Of a DNA stretch of 58,753 bases, positions 36,820 through 56,339 are shown one piece after another. The notes under the pieces were generated by a model that was given only the letters and a program-made list of their open reading frames with translations, was not told where the DNA came from and searched no databases. Numbering within the stretch: position 1 is the stretch's first letter; each line of letters opens with the position of its first letter. Source of the DNA: Chlorobium sp. (GTDB taxonomy: Bacteria; Bacteroidota; Chlorobiia; Chlorobiales; Chlorobiaceae); NCBI GenBank assembly GCA_005843815.1, contig SZYA01000046.1, positions 1 through 58,753 on the forward strand, read 5' to 3'. The position numbers were made by a program, and so were the translations under genes.

Positions 36820-37068
36820 TCACCTGCTTTCGCGATGAAACCTGTGGCCTGTTCGTTGAAATACCTTAAGCCATAACCAGGCCAGAAGCAGAGTTATCAT
36901 GGCCGTAAGCCCCAGCGTTACTGGCCAACCCATCAACGATGCAAGTGGTGTGCCAACGGTAGCAGCAACCACCACTCCAATAATTGGAGTCCAGGCAATG
37001 CCAAGCAGTGAAGAGAGGCCTGTTTTCATAAACTGCTTTCTCTTTTCAGTATCAGGAAAAAGTTTCAT
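36820..37068 (-). CDS. small two-helix membrane protein, unknown function
   Basis: I do not recognise a family. The 82-residue protein has a basic, polar N-terminus, two hydrophobic segments (about residues 18-40 and 46-68) and an Arg/His-rich tail 'RTGHRFHRESR'. It starts 6 bp after the TPR gene on the same strand, so it is co-transcribed with that gene and lies upstream of nuoA. Confidence 0.7.
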   Translation of the reverse strand: MKLFPDTEKRKQFMKTGLSSLLGIAWTPIIGVVVAATVGTPLASLMGWPVTLGLTAMITLLLAWLWLKVFQRTGHRFHRESR

Positions 37069-48093: not shown

Positions 48094-48096
48094 GTG

Positions 48097-50241
48097 ATGA
48101 GATCACGTAAAGCATTTTTTTTTATCGCCATGGCTGGTATTGCCATACTGACTGAACCTTGTATAGGTCATGCGGCAAAGCAAAAAAAAGCAAAAACACC
48201 CAAAAACCGTGTTCAAGAGAGTTCAACCGTTACTCCTGTCTCGATGGATTTGTTCAGGGATGGCACTCTCGACAAGCAGTCAACGCTGAAACTTGCGTCA
48301 ACCCTCTTTACCAATAAAGAGTATAAAGATGGAGATGAGGTCGCTGCCAGACTTGTGGAGTTATACCCAAAGGATGCTTTTGTTTTGAAGAAAGTTATCG
48401 AACTCTATTTGGCTGTGCAAAATGCCGAAAAGACTCTTCCGTTGTATGAGCAGTTGAGAAAAATTGATCCTCAGAATGCTCAGGTGATACTTAATGCGGC
48501 CAGAGCATATTCGTGGACTGGACGTTGGGATACAGCGCTGAAACTCCTTGATACTGTTGTCAGTTCCGGTGATACTAGTAATGCCATTCAGCGCGAATAT
48601 GCTGATGTGCTCTATAACAGCAAACAGTATGTAACCGCGAGCGAGTATTACCAGAAACTTTTTGAAAAAAACAGACAGAAAGATTACGCGATCGCTTTTG
48701 TTTATAAGCTTTCAGCAGTCAAAGAGTTGGTGGAGGCGAAAAAGTTACTGGACTGTGTTGAAAAGTACTATCCTAAGGATATTTCTCTCCTTGAAACCAA
48801 GGCAAATCTTGCTTTGGGGCGAGGGGACTTAACCGAAGCGTTAAAGATATGTGAGGAGCTGATCCAACGCTCACCCAAAAATCGAACAAACCAGACCGCG
48901 TTGTTAATCAAGGCTGAGATTGCGAGTTGGCAGAAAGAGTATGCAACCTCCCTTGGCAGTTATGACAAATTGATTGCCAGCGACAGTAACCATCACAGCG
49001 ATTATTTTCGCATAAAGGCGTATCGAGAAAAGGGGCGTGTGCTTGGATGGATAGCGAAATATGGAAAAGCTACGGCTACGTACGATGAAGGTGTTCGCGC
49101 ATATCCTGAGAGCAAAGAGCTAAAGGCTGAAGCAACGGCCAAAAAGAATTATTATCGCGGTGCTTATCGACCGGCACTCAAAGCATACAGGGAGTGGTTG
49201 CTGATTGAGCCCAATGAGCCTGAAGCACTTTTTGACCTTGGACAGCTCTCTATGCAGAATGGTCGCTGGAAAGAGGCTAGGGAGACGTATAAACTTTTGT
49301 TGACCGAGATGCCTGGACATCGTCAGGCCGCACTGGCGCAACAGAAAAACAGCATCCTCTCTTCCATGCCGCTACTCCATAGTGGTGCCGAATATGTCAA
49401 GAGTGAATGGAAAAGCATGAATGTTACCTATTCAGGAGCCTATTCCTCGATCTCGTGGCCTTATGGGGACCAATTCTCCGGTTTTATGCGTCTGGATCAC
49501 AAGTCGTTTCGTTTTGAAAATTCAACAGGAAACGTCAGCCAACATAATATAACGACAGGGTTTGAATACCGAAACATACCTGATATCCTGTTTCGGGGCG
49601 CTTATGGCTATCACGTCAACTCCGGAAAATCAACAGGCGCTCATACCGGCTTTGTAGAAACTCAAAGCGAGCCACTGAATAACATTCACCTTGGATTTGC
49701 CTTTCGTCGTGAAGAGGTGATTGATAATGCGGAGACATTTCGGAGAGGACTCAAAAGAAATAGATTACAGGGACGCGTTACATACGACGGTTATCGCAAC
49801 TGGAATGCAGGCATGGACTACGATATTGCAAACTATTCAGATGCTAACCAAAGTCATACCACTGGCGGTGATGTTACCGCTCATCTCCTCTTTGGACAGA
49901 GGCACCTGAATCTTGCTTACCGGTTTCAGAACTATGGATTCTCCAGTTCGACACCTCATATCTACTGGAGTCCTGCATCGTTTAACACTCACTCATTAGG
50001 TATGGAGTTCCGAAACTATTTTAATGATGAACTTTTTCAGGGTGTGAATGAAACTTATTATTCAACTTCTTACAAAATTATTGCTGAACCTGAAAATAAT
50101 ATATCGCACCAGATTCGTGCAATGTTGTATCACGACTGGAGTAACCACTTTTCCACCTCAATTGAGGGACAGTATTCTTGGGCAACCAAGGCTTTCTACG
50201 AAGACAAGCTGCTTAAAACAGAGATCCGGTGGTTTTTTTAA
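48097..50241 (+). CDS. TPR/beta-barrel outer-membrane exopolysaccharide exporter (BcsC-like)
   Basis: The 714-residue protein has a signal peptide (to about residue 27) and then about ten TPR-type helix pairs (residues 45-425, e.g. 'NAARAYSWTGRWDTALKLLDTV'). The C-terminal ~290 residues are rich in alternating aromatic beta strands and end in 'IRWFF', as outer-membrane barrels do. This is the BcsC/PgaA/AlgK-AlgE plan for passing a polysaccharide through the outer membrane. It is first in an operon with a GT2 synthase and a GH8 hydrolase. GTG 48094 and ATG 48097 are both possible starts. Confidence 0.82.
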   Translation: MRSRKAFFFIAMAGIAILTEPCIGHAAKQKKAKTPKNRVQESSTVTPVSMDLFRDGTLDKQSTLKLASTLFTNKEYKDGDEVAARLVELYPKDAFVLKKVIELYLAVQNAEKTLPLYEQLRKIDPQNAQVILNAARAYSWTGRWDTALKLLDTVVSSGDTSNAIQREYADVLYNSKQYVTASEYYQKLFEKNRQKDYAIAFVYKLSAVKELVEAKKLLDCVEKYYPKDISLLETKANLALGRGDLTEALKICEELIQRSPKNRTNQTALLIKAEIASWQKEYATSLGSYDKLIASDSNHHSDYFRIKAYREKGRVLGWIAKYGKATATYDEGVRAYPESKELKAEATAKKNYYRGAYRPALKAYREWLLIEPNEPEALFDLGQLSMQNGRWKEARETYKLLLTEMPGHRQAALAQQKNSILSSMPLLHSGAEYVKSEWKSMNVTYSGAYSSISWPYGDQFSGFMRLDHKSFRFENSTGNVSQHNITTGFEYRNIPDILFRGAYGYHVNSGKSTGAHTGFVETQSEPLNNIHLGFAFRREEVIDNAETFRRGLKRNRLQGRVTYDGYRNWNAGMDYDIANYSDANQSHTTGGDVTAHLLFGQRHLNLAYRFQNYGFSSSTPHIYWSPASFNTHSLGMEFRNYFNDELFQGVNETYYSTSYKIIAEPENNISHQIRAMLYHDWSNHFSTSIEGQYSWATKAFYEDKLLKTEIRWFF

Positions 50242-50267
50242 TTATGCTTTTATAAATTTCGAGAAAA

Positions 50268-51782
50268 ATGCGTGACAAGAAAAATTCCTGGTTTCTGATT
50301 GTACAGATAGTATTGCTGTTAGTTCTGCTCGCCATCTATGTTGGTGTTCGAGTTTATTATATCTTGATTGCGCCATTCACTCCGTTTGAGCTCATCTTTA
50401 GTCTGATTTTTTTTGTCGCGGAAATTTTTATTCTGTTCCACTCTTTTTTCTTTTTTGTGGATGTGTTGCGCGAAAATTTAAATCCATTAACACCGCCACA
50501 GATGAGCCCTGGCGAGGATGCCTCTGTGGCCATTTTAATACCAGCTCGTCATGAATCGAGGGAAATTATCGAAACAACACTCCTGACATGCAAAAACATC
50601 GCCTATGAAAACAAGAATGTTTACCTTCTGGATGACTCAACTATTGAAAGTTACAAGCTTGAAGCCAAGGAACTTTCAGAACAACTGGGCGTTAATCTCT
50701 TTACCCGCAGTGACAACCGTGGGGCGAAGGCTGGCATGATTAATGAGGTGTTGAAAACTCTTGATGAAAAGTATGTCGCTATTTTTGATGCCGACCAGAA
50801 CCCCATGCCCGTGTTTTTGAAGACACTTGTCCCTTTTCTTGAAGCTGATGCACAGCTTGCGTTTGTTCAGACCCCGCAGTTCTATTCAAATGGAGACGAA
50901 AGCACTGTCGCGATGACCGCGCATAACCAACAGGCTATTTTTTATGAGTATATCTGTCTTGGCAAAACAATAAACAAGGCAATGTTTTGTTGTGGCACAA
51001 ATGTTGTTTTCCGTCGCGCAGCGTTAAATAGTGTTGGTAATTTTGATGAAGAGACCGTAACAGAGGATATTGCCACCTCACTGAAGCTCCATACAAAAAG
51101 CTGGAAATCATTTTTTATTCACAAAGCTTATACGTTTGGTATGGCTCCTGAGGATTTGGCTGCCTACTTTACACAGCAGAACCGCTGGGCATTGGGAACA
51201 TCACAACTTTTTCGAAAACTTGTTAAAATCTTTTTTACCGACATAAAGTCTCTTCGCCCTGAACAGTGGCTTGAATATTTCATATCTACAACCTACTATT
51301 TTATTGGGATAGCATATTTTATACTGATGGCAGGTCCCATCATGTATATCTTTCTGGATATCAACTCCTATAATATTGATTCCTTTATCTATTCTATTAC
51401 ATTTATTCCATTCTTCATCCTATCTAATCTCGTTTTTTACGGGAGTATGGTTAAGAAAAAGTATAAACTCGGCAATATGATCAAGGTACAGATGCTGACC
51501 GCTCTCTCTATGCCTGTCTATTTGAGTGCTTCAATTGTTGGCATACTGAATATCAGCAAGAAAGGTTTTCAGGTAACTCCAAAGGGTAACTCCTCAAATG
51601 TTCCATGGAAGAGTCTTTGGCCACAATTACTACTGATTGCTACAGTTTTTGTAACATTCACTTGGGGAATTGTGAGGCTGATGACGAATGATGGTGTTCA
51701 GAGCATACTCGGTGTCAATGTCTTTTGGATGGGTTTTCAGCTTCTTTTGCTGAGTGGACTTTTTCATTTCAACAGAAAATGA
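50268..51782 (+). CDS. cellulose-synthase-like processive glycosyltransferase (GT2)
   Basis: The 504-residue inner-membrane synthase has two N-terminal helices, a cytoplasmic GT-A domain and four to five C-terminal helices. Visible catalytic motifs are 'LLDDST' (about 121), 'FDADQNP' (about 173-179), 'FCCGTNVVF' (about 240), 'TEDIATS' (about 265) and 'QQNRWALG' (the QxxRW motif, 303-307). It lacks the C-terminal PilZ domain of BcsA, so c-di-GMP control through that route is not expected. The polymer could be cellulose or another beta-glucan. It starts 26 bp after the exporter gene and overlaps the GH8 gene by 4 bp. Confidence 0.9.
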   Translation: MRDKKNSWFLIVQIVLLLVLLAIYVGVRVYYILIAPFTPFELIFSLIFFVAEIFILFHSFFFFVDVLRENLNPLTPPQMSPGEDASVAILIPARHESREIIETTLLTCKNIAYENKNVYLLDDSTIESYKLEAKELSEQLGVNLFTRSDNRGAKAGMINEVLKTLDEKYVAIFDADQNPMPVFLKTLVPFLEADAQLAFVQTPQFYSNGDESTVAMTAHNQQAIFYEYICLGKTINKAMFCCGTNVVFRRAALNSVGNFDEETVTEDIATSLKLHTKSWKSFFIHKAYTFGMAPEDLAAYFTQQNRWALGTSQLFRKLVKIFFTDIKSLRPEQWLEYFISTTYYFIGIAYFILMAGPIMYIFLDINSYNIDSFIYSITFIPFFILSNLVFYGSMVKKKYKLGNMIKVQMLTALSMPVYLSASIVGILNISKKGFQVTPKGNSSNVPWKSLWPQLLLIATVFVTFTWGIVRLMTNDGVQSILGVNVFWMGFQLLLLSGLFHFNRK

Positions 51783-52900
51783 GGCGTTTTTTTTTACTGT
51801 TGTCTGTTTTTATTCTTCCGTTACTTTCAATAAACTGCGCTATTGTTCCACAAAATCCTGAGGAGATTGCTTTCTTCTCTTGGACTCACTATAAACAGAC
51901 CTTTATTCGTGGGGGGAGGGTTTTTCGCCCAAAAAATAATAATGATACCGTATCTGAGGGGCAGGCCTACGGGATGATTCGAGCTGTGCTGCTGGATGAC
52001 CGCAAAACATTTGATGAGTGCCTTACCTGGACTGAAGCACAACTCTCTAGAAAGAATTCTCATGGTGACAGGTTACTGGCATGGCATTTTGAAGATGGCA
52101 AAATTATCGATACAAAAGCAGCATCTGATGCCGATATTGATTACGCATACAGCCTTATTCTTGCTTCACGTAAGTGGGGTGACAAGAGCTACATGACACT
52201 GGCAAAAGGGGTGCTTGAGAGTGTTCTTGATCAAGAGACATCGATCATCAAAGGCAGGCTCTATTTTCTTCCCTGGCCAAAACAGAATAACCGGGATGGT
52301 GAAATTATTGCCTTGAACCCCTCCTACTATGCACCTTCTCATTTCAAGCTTTTTTTTGAAGTCAGTGGTGACAAGCGCTGGCTTGAGCTTGTCGATACGA
52401 CATACTTCATCCTCGATCGCCTTCTCGATTCCCCTGGCGAAGAGAATAAGGGAGGTTTTGTTCCTGACTGGATTGCTGTTGACCAGAATGGAACACTTGT
52501 TGAACTGCCCGGAAAACCGGTTGACTATGGATGGGATGCCGTAAGGGTACCACTTAGAATTGCTGCTGATTATTATCTTTACGGGGATAGCCGCGCTCTT
52601 GGTGTGCTTCGTCTTTTTTCGGCATTTTTTGAGAAAGAGTACACTGAACCATCAAAAAGCAAGACTTTAGAGAATGCGCTCTTTTACAGTGCGGTATACG
52701 CTGCAACTGAAACTGCTGGATCCCCTCTCTCATCGGCTATACTGCAACGCCTCAGAGAGTGTATTCGAAAAAACAATAAGGGATTCTATTACAACGATAA
52801 TAATGATTATTACATCAACAGCATCTCCTGGTTGCCTGAGTACTATAACATTATAAAATTAACCGGAAAACTGAAACATCCTCCACTCTCTGCAGGATAA
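51779..52900 (+). CDS. glycoside hydrolase family 8 endoglucanase (BcsZ-like)
   Basis: The 373-residue protein has a hydrophobic N-terminal signal ending near 'LLSINC', where a Cys follows but the lipobox is not canonical. The GH8 core has 'DTVSEGQAYGMIRAVLL', whose Glu (about 60) is the proton donor. It also has 'ASDADIDYAYSLILAS', 'NPSYYAPSHFKLFF' and 'YGWDAVRVPLRIAADYYLY', whose Asp matches the catalytic-base region. GH8 enzymes in cellulose operons trim nascent beta-1,4-glucan in the periplasm. ATG 51779 overlaps the GT2 stop (ATGA); the track start lies within the GT2 gene. Confidence 0.92.
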   Translation: MRRFFLLLSVFILPLLSINCAIVPQNPEEIAFFSWTHYKQTFIRGGRVFRPKNNNDTVSEGQAYGMIRAVLLDDRKTFDECLTWTEAQLSRKNSHGDRLLAWHFEDGKIIDTKAASDADIDYAYSLILASRKWGDKSYMTLAKGVLESVLDQETSIIKGRLYFLPWPKQNNRDGEIIALNPSYYAPSHFKLFFEVSGDKRWLELVDTTYFILDRLLDSPGEENKGGFVPDWIAVDQNGTLVELPGKPVDYGWDAVRVPLRIAADYYLYGDSRALGVLRLFSAFFEKEYTEPSKSKTLENALFYSAVYAATETAGSPLSSAILQRLRECIRKNNKGFYYNDNNDYYINSISWLPEYYNIIKLTGKLKHPPLSAG

Positions 52901-53025
52901 CACGTTATGAACATTGCCCTCTTTAGTGCAATTTCATTCGCTTGGCTAATGAACTTTTATTGAGGGTAATCTGTTTGATTTACGATGGGTGTTATTTTCT
53001 CAAAACCAGATATGCGGAGGGAGTT

Positions 53026-53235
53026 ATGTCAGAAGAACAGGCAAGGGGGTTCATTGAGAAATTGAAAACTGACGCAAAGATGAGTGCGCGCCTTATTGCA
53101 TTCATCAAAAAGGAGGGCTTTTCGTGCACCGTGGAGGAGCTTGGCAAAGTGAATTGGGATGAGTTGATAGCCCTTCAGAATTCGGGAAGCGCCAGCGGAA
53201 GTTCCAGTCTGCCTGCCTCGGAACATTGGGGATGA
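53026..53235 (+). CDS. Nif11-type leader-peptide family protein
   Basis: The 69-residue product starts 'MSEEQARGFIEKLKTDAKMSARL', the Nif11 leader domain (PF07862-like), and continues 'FIKKEGFSCTVEELGKV'. The tail 'NSGSASGSSSLPASEHWG' is short and Ser/Gly-rich, with no Cys for lanthionines and no double-Gly cleavage site. Nif11 domains occur as leaders of RiPP precursors and as solitary small proteins, often near nif genes. A perfect GGAGG lies 5-9 bp before this ATG, so the track start at 52942 is rejected. No modification enzyme or transporter is adjacent. The nif promoter lies 2.2 kb downstream. Confidence 0.88.
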   Translation: MSEEQARGFIEKLKTDAKMSARLIAFIKKEGFSCTVEELGKVNWDELIALQNSGSASGSSSLPASEHWG

Positions 53236-53410: not shown

Positions 53411-53650
53411 ATGATCGAAAAACAAGAATTACTCCACAAAATATGCGCCATTGAGCAAAGCGAGGAATCGGTTATTTCCATTTACTCGAACCATATCCAG
53501 AATGTTTTAAGATATTCGACACTTGACGAAAGAGTACAGTCAAGAATTCTTGATATGTTGCAGCAGCTTGATGCCGATATGCAAATACAAAAGAACTACA
53601 CAAAGACTCTTATTGAATCCATAGAAAAAAGCACAAAAGATGTTTATTAA
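53411..53650 (+). CDS. small helical (ferritin-like?) protein, unknown function
   Basis: The 79-residue, all-helical-looking protein contains Glu/Gln/Tyr/His spaced along two predicted helices ('AIEQSEESVISIYSNHI' and 'ILDMLQQLDADMQIQKNYTK'). It faintly resembles half of a rubrerythrin/ferritin-like bundle, but the metal ligands are not clear. No Shine-Dalgarno is evident. Its last 11 bp overlap the NotI-family gene in another frame, and that gene opens with a similar helix pair. The two may act together or derive from one split four-helix domain. The family is not recognised. Confidence 0.6.
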   Translation: MIEKQELLHKICAIEQSEESVISIYSNHIQNVLRYSTLDERVQSRILDMLQQLDADMQIQKNYTKTLIESIEKSTKDVY

Positions 53651-55043
53651 TAAGGATTTGCTCGACTTTTTCTCTTCTATGGCTGAGATTAAAAAACAAA
53701 AACGAGATGTTTTTTACACGCTCGCTGCGGAGGTGGATGATGCCGATGTTAAAAAGAGGCTCCTGCAAATTGGCAAGAATGAGCAGTTGCACGTTGATCA
53801 ACTGCAGCAAAGTATGGATCTCGTAAACGGAGCGCCATATCAGAATTTTGTGCCAGATATTCTGACTGAGACTCCATTGGTGCCATTTCAGATCCCCTTG
53901 GAGGATGTTTTGGTTGATGTTGACGATTCCGCCAGCACAGAATCAGCAGCCCATGCAGAGTTGCCTCACCATGATTTTGATGATGTTGTGCCGTTTTTAA
54001 GAGCTGTTGAGCCTGAACCGGATGAAAGTGAGGATACGACGATTGGCATGGCAGCAACTCACCTTGAAACATCTTTGCCTGATTCCGTGAACACCGGCAT
54101 AACACCGCTCGATACCATTAACCTCAATATTGACCAAGAGGAGCAGATAACACAAATCAGCTCTTTAAGTCATTTCAAACCCACAGCGTCGCAAAATTCT
54201 TTCAGTATGGACTATTTAAATCATCCGCTTGCTGAGGTCTTTGGTTTTACAACATCAGATCTCTCTTCCAAGGCACAACGGTATCGCTCTCACCACCATT
54301 GTCCTTTCAATAACCGTGTTCCCAACTGCACCAATGAGAATCCAAAAAATCCTCTTGGGGTATGCTCTCTTCTTCATAACAATAAAGCCGTAATTACATG
54401 CCCTGTTCGTTTTCGTGAAGAGTGGCTTATTACTGATGATGCCGCCTCATTCTTTTTCCCTGAGGGAGTTCGTTGGAGCTCTCTGACCGAGGTTGAGTTG
54501 ACTGATGCTTATGGTAAATCTTCCGGATCTCTTGATCTGGTTCTCGTCGCTTATGATGATTCCGGTAAAATAACTGATTTTGGAGCTATAGAGATTCAGT
54601 CAGCTTTTATCACTGGAGATGCTCGGGATCCATTCAACTTTTACATGAAGGATCCAAAGACAAACTCTTTGATGGATTGGTCTGCGCAGTCGAACTTTCC
54701 GCAACCAGATTATGTTTCGGCCATGAGGGAGAGCCTTGTGCCTCAGCTTATCTTCAAGGGCTCTATTTTGAATTCATGGAGCAAAAAATTGGCAATTTCT
54801 ATTGATCGTAGCTATTTCGAAGCGCTTCCGAATCTCGTACCTGTCGAAAAACAAGATGCAGAAATTGCCTGGTTTATCTATGATCTTGAACTGGTGGTAA
54901 ACGGAGAGAAGGAAAGCTATGAGCTCAAAAGGGCCAATGTTGTCTATACAAAATTCCAGCAGACACTTTCTGCGTTATCAATCTCCCATCCTGATAATAT
55001 TGAGCATTTCATGAAACTCCTTCCAGAACTTGCCGACAGGTAG
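53640..55043 (+). CDS. NotI-family restriction-endonuclease-like protein with N-terminal ferritin-like segment
   Basis: The 467-residue protein has three parts. Residues 15-60 form a ferritin-like helix pair ('EIKKQKRDVFYTLAAEV' and 'IGKNEQLHVDQL', with an ExxH). Residues 65-190 are an acidic, low-complexity linker. Residues ~195-467 match NotI, with the four iron-binding Cys in 'CPFNNRVPNC', 'GVCSLL' and 'VITCPVRF' (221, 230, 242, 254). The unusual active site is Asp299 ('GSLDLVL') and 'AIEIQ' (Glu318, Gln320), the D...ExQ of NotI. It should cleave DNA, but the site is unknown. No methyltransferase gene lies nearby. It overlaps the upstream small gene by 11 bp. Confidence 0.88.
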   Translation: MFINKDLLDFFSSMAEIKKQKRDVFYTLAAEVDDADVKKRLLQIGKNEQLHVDQLQQSMDLVNGAPYQNFVPDILTETPLVPFQIPLEDVLVDVDDSASTESAAHAELPHHDFDDVVPFLRAVEPEPDESEDTTIGMAATHLETSLPDSVNTGITPLDTINLNIDQEEQITQISSLSHFKPTASQNSFSMDYLNHPLAEVFGFTTSDLSSKAQRYRSHHHCPFNNRVPNCTNENPKNPLGVCSLLHNNKAVITCPVRFREEWLITDDAASFFFPEGVRWSSLTEVELTDAYGKSSGSLDLVLVAYDDSGKITDFGAIEIQSAFITGDARDPFNFYMKDPKTNSLMDWSAQSNFPQPDYVSAMRESLVPQLIFKGSILNSWSKKLAISIDRSYFEALPNLVPVEKQDAEIAWFIYDLELVVNGEKESYELKRANVVYTKFQQTLSALSISHPDNIEHFMKLLPELADR

Positions 55044-55085
55044 AGAGTTGCTCTGAGAGTCTAACCTTCTCACTGACTTACCATA

Positions 55086-55129
55086 CCCCGAAAGAATCTT
55101 TTTATAGAGAAGGTTCTTTCGGGGTTTTT
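55086..55129 (+). terminator. rho-independent terminator after the NotI-family gene
   Basis: An 11-bp perfect stem (CCCCGAAAGAA / TTCTTTCGGGG) with a 17-nt loop is followed directly by TTTTT, 43 bp after the stop. It insulates the nif operon. Confidence 0.93.
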
Positions 55130-55411: not shown

Positions 55412-55427
55412 TGGCACGCATCTTGCT
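55412..55427 (+). promoter_or_regulatory. sigma-54 (-24/-12) promoter of the nif operon
   Basis: TGGCACG-CATC-TTGCT is an exact match to the sigma-54 consensus TGGCACG-N4-TTGC(A/T). The start of transcription would be near 55438, about 77 nt ahead of nifH. An enhancer-binding activator should be required. Confidence 0.95.

Positions 55428-55502: not shown

Positions 55503-56339
<837 letters not shown>

Follow-up and report, generated by a model that had tools for sequence, protein, structure and literature searches.

A Chlorobium family of Nif11-type mini-proteins with a conserved C-terminal tail and, mostly, a shared ECF-type upstream element

The analyzed stretch of DNA, referred to here as the window, is a 58,753-nt contig (C104; SZYA01000046.1) from a 1.9-Mb draft genome of Chlorobium sp. 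(a MAG, about 90% complete; GCA_005843815.1). On its forward strand, which carries all features described below unless stated otherwise, positions 53026–53235 encode a Nif11-type mini-protein of 69 aa plus stop. Translation from the ATG at 53026 to the stop codon ending at 53235 gives MSEEQARGFIEKLKTDAKMSARLIAFIKKEGFSCTVEELGKVNWDELIALQNSGSASGSSSLPASEHWG. This ORF is enclosed by a 97-codon ORF with a TTG start at 52942. The preliminary description of the locus, drawn up from the letters of the DNA, had regarded the longer ORF as wrongly started, and this is borne out by the internal ATG and by a start methionine common to the homologues. A strong Shine-Dalgarno sequence, GGAGGGAG, is present at 53016–53023 as had been noted, and the homologues have a purine-rich RBS at the equivalent place. 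The suspected Nif11 leader domain was confirmed by both profiles suggested for the purpose. PF07862 scored 26.8 bits against a gathering cut-off of 23.8 over residues 1–39 of the 69-aa product, and TIGR03798 scored 34.4 bits against the NCBIfam cut-off of 32.3, with only model positions 1–50 of 68 aligned. The domain spans residues 1–41 (53026–53148), has predicted helices, and lacks a 9-residue segment that classical Nif11 leaders within the genus have. PDB entry 9zn4, a Nif11 domain-containing protein, showed profile similarity to this N-terminal domain only (E 5.5e-4). The gene is real: orthologues in 14 other genomes and the codon pattern rule out a frameshift or chance ORF. An HMM match and a conserved ORF with its RBS, the lack of either of which had been named as grounds for abandoning the idea, were both found. 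PADLOC and PHROGs gave no match for the 69-aa peptide, and Rfam gave none within 52.8–55.6 kb of the window.

Downstream of the Nif11 gene lie c3 (53411–53650), encoding a 79-aa protein without known function, and c0 (53640–55043), encoding 467 aa, in which a long N-terminal extension precedes a NotI-type restriction endonuclease domain (PF12183, residues 209–423, E 1.5e-51). An intrinsic terminator, formed by a stem of 19 pairs and a T run after it (55085–55125), separates c0 from nifH. The latter, recognized by sequence, starts at 55515, and a sigma-54 site matching TGGCAC-N5-TTGC exactly (55412–55426, roughly 90 nt upstream of the nifH start codon) bounds the nif unit. The Nif11 gene lies 2.28 kb upstream of nifH, in agreement with the roughly 2.2 kb first reported.

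Behind the Nif11 domain, the peptide consists of a variable linker and a fixed end. The Ser/Gly-rich linker NSGSASGSSS (53179–53208) is species-specific and unconserved in the orthologue alignment, in which an EDLPDTPN-like sequence or a gap takes its place. It is followed by the conserved C-terminal tail LPASEHW-G (53209–53232), with LPASEHW identical in 15 orthologues. Across these 15 sequences, the LPASEHW codons gave a pN of 0.000 and a pS of 0.684, with many silent changes and zero amino-acid changes, whereas residues 1–43, the Nif11 body, gave a pN of 0.258 and a pS of 0.708. Protein-level constraint is stronger on the tail than on the Nif11 body, the reverse of classical leader/core precursors, and a hypervariable core behind a conserved leader was not observed. 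The Ser/Gly stretch, initially read as the core, is ruled out in that role since it is unconserved; orthologues replace or delete it, and LPASEHW is invariant right behind it. The initial remark that the tail has neither a GG site nor Cys holds for the window copy. No GG-like cleavage site is conserved in the window peptide or its orthologues, and the ELSDEELDAAAGG segment is absent. In an alignment of 52 family members over several locus types, the W was present in 52/52 and the E in at least 90%. Two AlphaFold models predicted a helical body with a disordered tail. The second model, of a paralogue, had pLDDT values of about 85–92 over residues 1–40 and 44–53 in the tail. A Foldseek search against the PDB with the lower-confidence P0001 model returned no match.

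The peptide had also been called solitary, which is not the case genome-wide. Listing the paralogues and aligning their tails, as had been proposed, revealed five dispersed members in the same genome, on C104 (the window copy), C57, C17, C35, and C53 (truncated by the contig end). Judged by full-length matches, more than 50 members are spread over 23 of about 65 same-genus genomes. Nearly all end in E-[H/Y/N/F]-W-x(1-2); in orthologues one or two residues follow LPASEHW, and paralogues end in GYE[H/Y/N/F]W-x-G. Two pairs depart from this pattern, one with GYQYW and a longer end and the other with K[EQ]WQG. The distribution search covered relatives and a sample of the phylum and, beyond it, plasmid records. 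Full-length matches among 100 relatives were confined to the same genus. Outside it, in the sister genus and the remaining phylum sample (395 genomes), matches were N-terminal only or absent, and the plasmid records held no homologue of the window peptide. Within the genomes sampled, sequence comparison places the gene in a Chlorobium-only family of Nif11-type mini-proteins, referred to here as the EHW family.

Upstream of the Nif11 gene, 74 nt before the ATG, lies a putative ECF-sigma-type promoter element, GAAC(TTTTATTGAGGGTAATCT)GTT (AAC-N18-GTT, 52951–52975), identified by motif enrichment. AAC-N18-GTT was found in 33 of 47 family upstream regions, compared with 4.2 expected from Markov resamples (maximum 9). 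Other spacings were at or near chance, except for N15, which was modestly raised (10 vs 4.1). The stricter form [AG]AAC-N18-GTT was present in 34/60 family upstream regions, 0/32 upstream regions of classical (mostly GG-type) Nif11 genes within the genus, and 25/687 of background genes. Because orthologue upstream regions are not independent, the site was also counted per protein cluster at 60% identity, and 9 of 17 clusters had it in at least half of their members. With a weight matrix run over 903 kb, the window site (52948–52979) ranked first and the 33 best matches precede family genes, with one exception at a contig end beside a family gene; this ranking is partly circular, as the matrix was trained on sequences that it ranks. 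The window site also had the best matrix score among the GAACTT-N16-GTT matches in its own genome. Most of the remaining matches of this kind fall within ORFs, and upstream of the two ECF-type sigma genes of this genome no convincing element was found, which argues against autoregulation of an ECF gene and against a regulon defined in this genome by GAACTT-N16-GTT. Promoters of ECF sigma regulons are of the GGAAC / GTT type with fixed spacing. The EHW upstream element resembles them in its (G)GAAC-like -35, its GTT-like -10, and its fixed spacing. Judging from these motifs, family genes would be transcribed from promoters of their own, mostly of the ECF-sigma type. Long type-3 members mostly lack AAC-N18-GTT, so that the family extends beyond a single regulon.

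Type-3 genes at L102, L103, L104, L105, L106, L107, L109, and L126 instead have a conserved inverted repeat, CAACGT-N11-ACGTTG, followed by AATNTNCGAACAAA, immediately before the Shine-Dalgarno sequence. The repeat shows compensatory change at two pairs and may act either as an operator or, in the transcript, as a hairpin. Many long members are located beside genes that read as PAS, CheB/CheR-like, response-regulator, or chemoreceptor-like genes. Such signaling-type neighbors, which speak for the regulatory reading given below, were observed at L102, L104–L107, L109, L124, L126, L050, L051, L057, L097, and L099.

The EHW family can be set against the N11P family (TIGR03798; Haft et al. 2010, PMC2887384), for which Chlorobium species were among those named. 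Both share the N-terminal domain, a short ORF, and several paralogues per genome. N11P members have ELSDEELEAVAGG and a variable core and are found beside TOMM, LanM, or ABC-transport genes, whereas the EHW family lacks the 9-residue domain part, the GG segment, and such neighbors, and it is the end of the protein that is conserved. Classical Nif11 precursors within the same genus (e.g., in G032, G060, G011, and G026) share a homologous domain with the EHW family but mostly have GG and hypervariable, often Cys-containing ends, with the nine domain residues and GG segment missing from EHW proteins and without the ECF-type element (0/32). Several of them are on contigs with SPASM radical SAM genes or NHLM transporters. 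The literature searched contained no description of a tail-conserved Nif11 family, and the one paper that ties Nif11 to Chlorobium concerns the classical kind. These tail-conserved mini-proteins, mostly with ECF-type promoters, are a new variant within the Nif11 family.

The preliminary description had left open whether the peptide is processed in trans as a precursor or instead has a regulatory function outside the RiPP class. The evidence leans toward the latter. Our best reading, in which we place about even confidence, is that of an ECF-controlled mini-protein that presents a C-terminal docking tail and has a regulatory role. The family, its tail conservation, the predicted disorder, the dispersed loci, and the common upstream element are computed; to these, the reading adds a presumed ECF dependence, docking, a partner, and the role itself. 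An inducing stress would act through the ECF-type promoter to cause synthesis of the mini-protein, whose short helical body would carry a flexible C-terminus (LPASEHW-G here, GYE[H/Y/N/F]W-x-G in paralogues). The last residues would form a linear docking motif for one partner common to all paralogues, and showing the tail to this partner would modulate it, with the mini-protein as adaptor or regulator. The family proteins are probably cytoplasmic, since no signal peptide is visible. The conserved E-H-W end together with the mostly shared stress-sigma-type promoter suggests that the gene is probably neither an ordinary peptide-antibiotic precursor nor a nitrogen-fixation gene. By default, Nif11 proteins are classed as leaders of RiPPs, and the usual logic is inverted here, with a variable linker and a fixed C-terminus. 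With a promoter class of their own, and occurring alongside classical Nif11 genes within one genus, these genes offer a clean comparison for the role of Nif11 outside a leader. The tail is defined, and candidates for the sigma factor and for the enzyme are now available for testing. Genome annotation is likely to give genes of this type a wrong label, either natural-product precursor or nif gene.

The alternative that survives best, although we regard it as doubtful, is that the family members are conserved-core RiPP precursors, in which a Nif11 leader precedes an invariant tail that one shared enzyme would modify in trans into a conserved product rather than a variable antibiotic. Membership by Nif11 HMM is consistent with this, and TIGR03798 carries the annotation of a leader family for RiPPs. 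The dispersed, unclustered paralogues resemble precursors served by one distant enzyme, and a radical SAM could plausibly target the conserved E, H/Y, and W. Against it stands the absence of a GG or other recognizable cleavage site. PqqA and mycofactocin MftA are likewise short peptides with an invariant motif under strong constraint, but they are clustered with a radical SAM and an RRE protein, and such a cluster is absent at EHW loci. No maturase or C39 transporter was found beside family genes in the loci examined, as had been noted for the window locus with respect to an adjacent maturase or peptidase-transporter. The suggested search for maturation genes elsewhere in the genome covered two families, TIGR03796 and TIGR04085. 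Its outcome was mixed: one SPASM radical SAM was found in the same genome, whereas TIGR03796 (NHLM peptidase-transporter) had no match above cut-off in this roughly 90% complete MAG, a further point against RiPP precursors. Above-cut-off NHLM peptidase-transporters were present in 12 of the searched same-genus genomes and do not track the family, which rules them out as a shared exporter.

The single SPASM radical SAM of the genome is a 359-aa protein (L154, 3664–4743; G000:C113) followed by a methyltransferase, and it is one of the arguments for modification in trans. It was found in 8/14 EHW-positive and 0/23 EHW-negative same-genus genomes searched. It is 93–100% identical between the species compared, while their other tested proteins are about 54–89% identical, so that it was probably spread horizontally. 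In contrast, the enzyme has neither the shared promoter element nor an RRE-like match in Pfam, and it was not detected in three EHW-positive genomes with LPASEHW (G014, G019, and the 99%-complete G028). Its co-occurrence with the family is a lead and not proof, and it may stem from shared ancestry, ecology, or transfer. The more specific proposal that the 359-aa SPASM radical SAM, itself spread horizontally, and its methyltransferase act in trans on the invariant tail of the many dispersed, ECF-controlled peptides, yielding a lineage-wide, Chlorobium-specific signal or cofactor and not an antibiotic, appears unlikely. Orthologues of the 359-aa radical SAM occur at L155–L161, often with an MFS-type transporter nearby. 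L162 and L163 (G024 and G010) hold clusters in which between two and four radical SAM genes are joined by ABC transporters and small proteins of PqqD-like size, and on reading their sequences they recall SynChlorMet-type cassettes.

It is improbable that the mini-protein is instead a partner of the adjacent c3 and NotI-like c0, for example by inhibiting or assisting the nuclease-like protein, with all three co-inherited as a module. The gene order does offer some encouragement: c0 adjoins the LPASEHW gene in 15/15 genomes in two chromosomal settings, usually with c3 present too, and of the 17 genomes that have c0 in its long form, 15 also have the LPASEHW gene. However, a single relocation of the segment accounts for both settings, and paralogues with the same tail occur elsewhere without a nearby c0. 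G041 and G046 retain c3-c0 without the Nif11 gene; thus, the link between Nif11 and c0 is loose, c3 is co-located with the Nif11 gene but not dependent on it, and the case for the NotI-like gene as an obligate partner is weakened. Eight other genomes have c0 genes to one side of the Nif11 gene or to both. In the window, c0 was not seen to have a methyltransferase next to it.

A nitrogen-fixation accessory peptide co-expressed with nifH, the tie suggested by the preliminary description, is highly improbable, because the proximity to nifH seen here recurs in 5/15 orthologues while 10/15 are not next to nif, the terminator and the perfect sigma-54 site intervene, and the gene has its own ECF-type element with no sigma-54 match upstream of 53026; it is rejected on synteny, terminator, and promoter together. 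A second exact sigma-54-type match, TGGCACACCACTTGC, lies at 36941–36955 of the window on the minus strand. Directly upstream of the Nif11 locus, 48094–52900 holds three genes that resemble a cellulose-synthase-like operon, encoding a TPR-rich protein, a membrane glycosyltransferase, and a GH8 endoglucanase (PF01270), and this trio is kept in the nif-linked orthologous loci.
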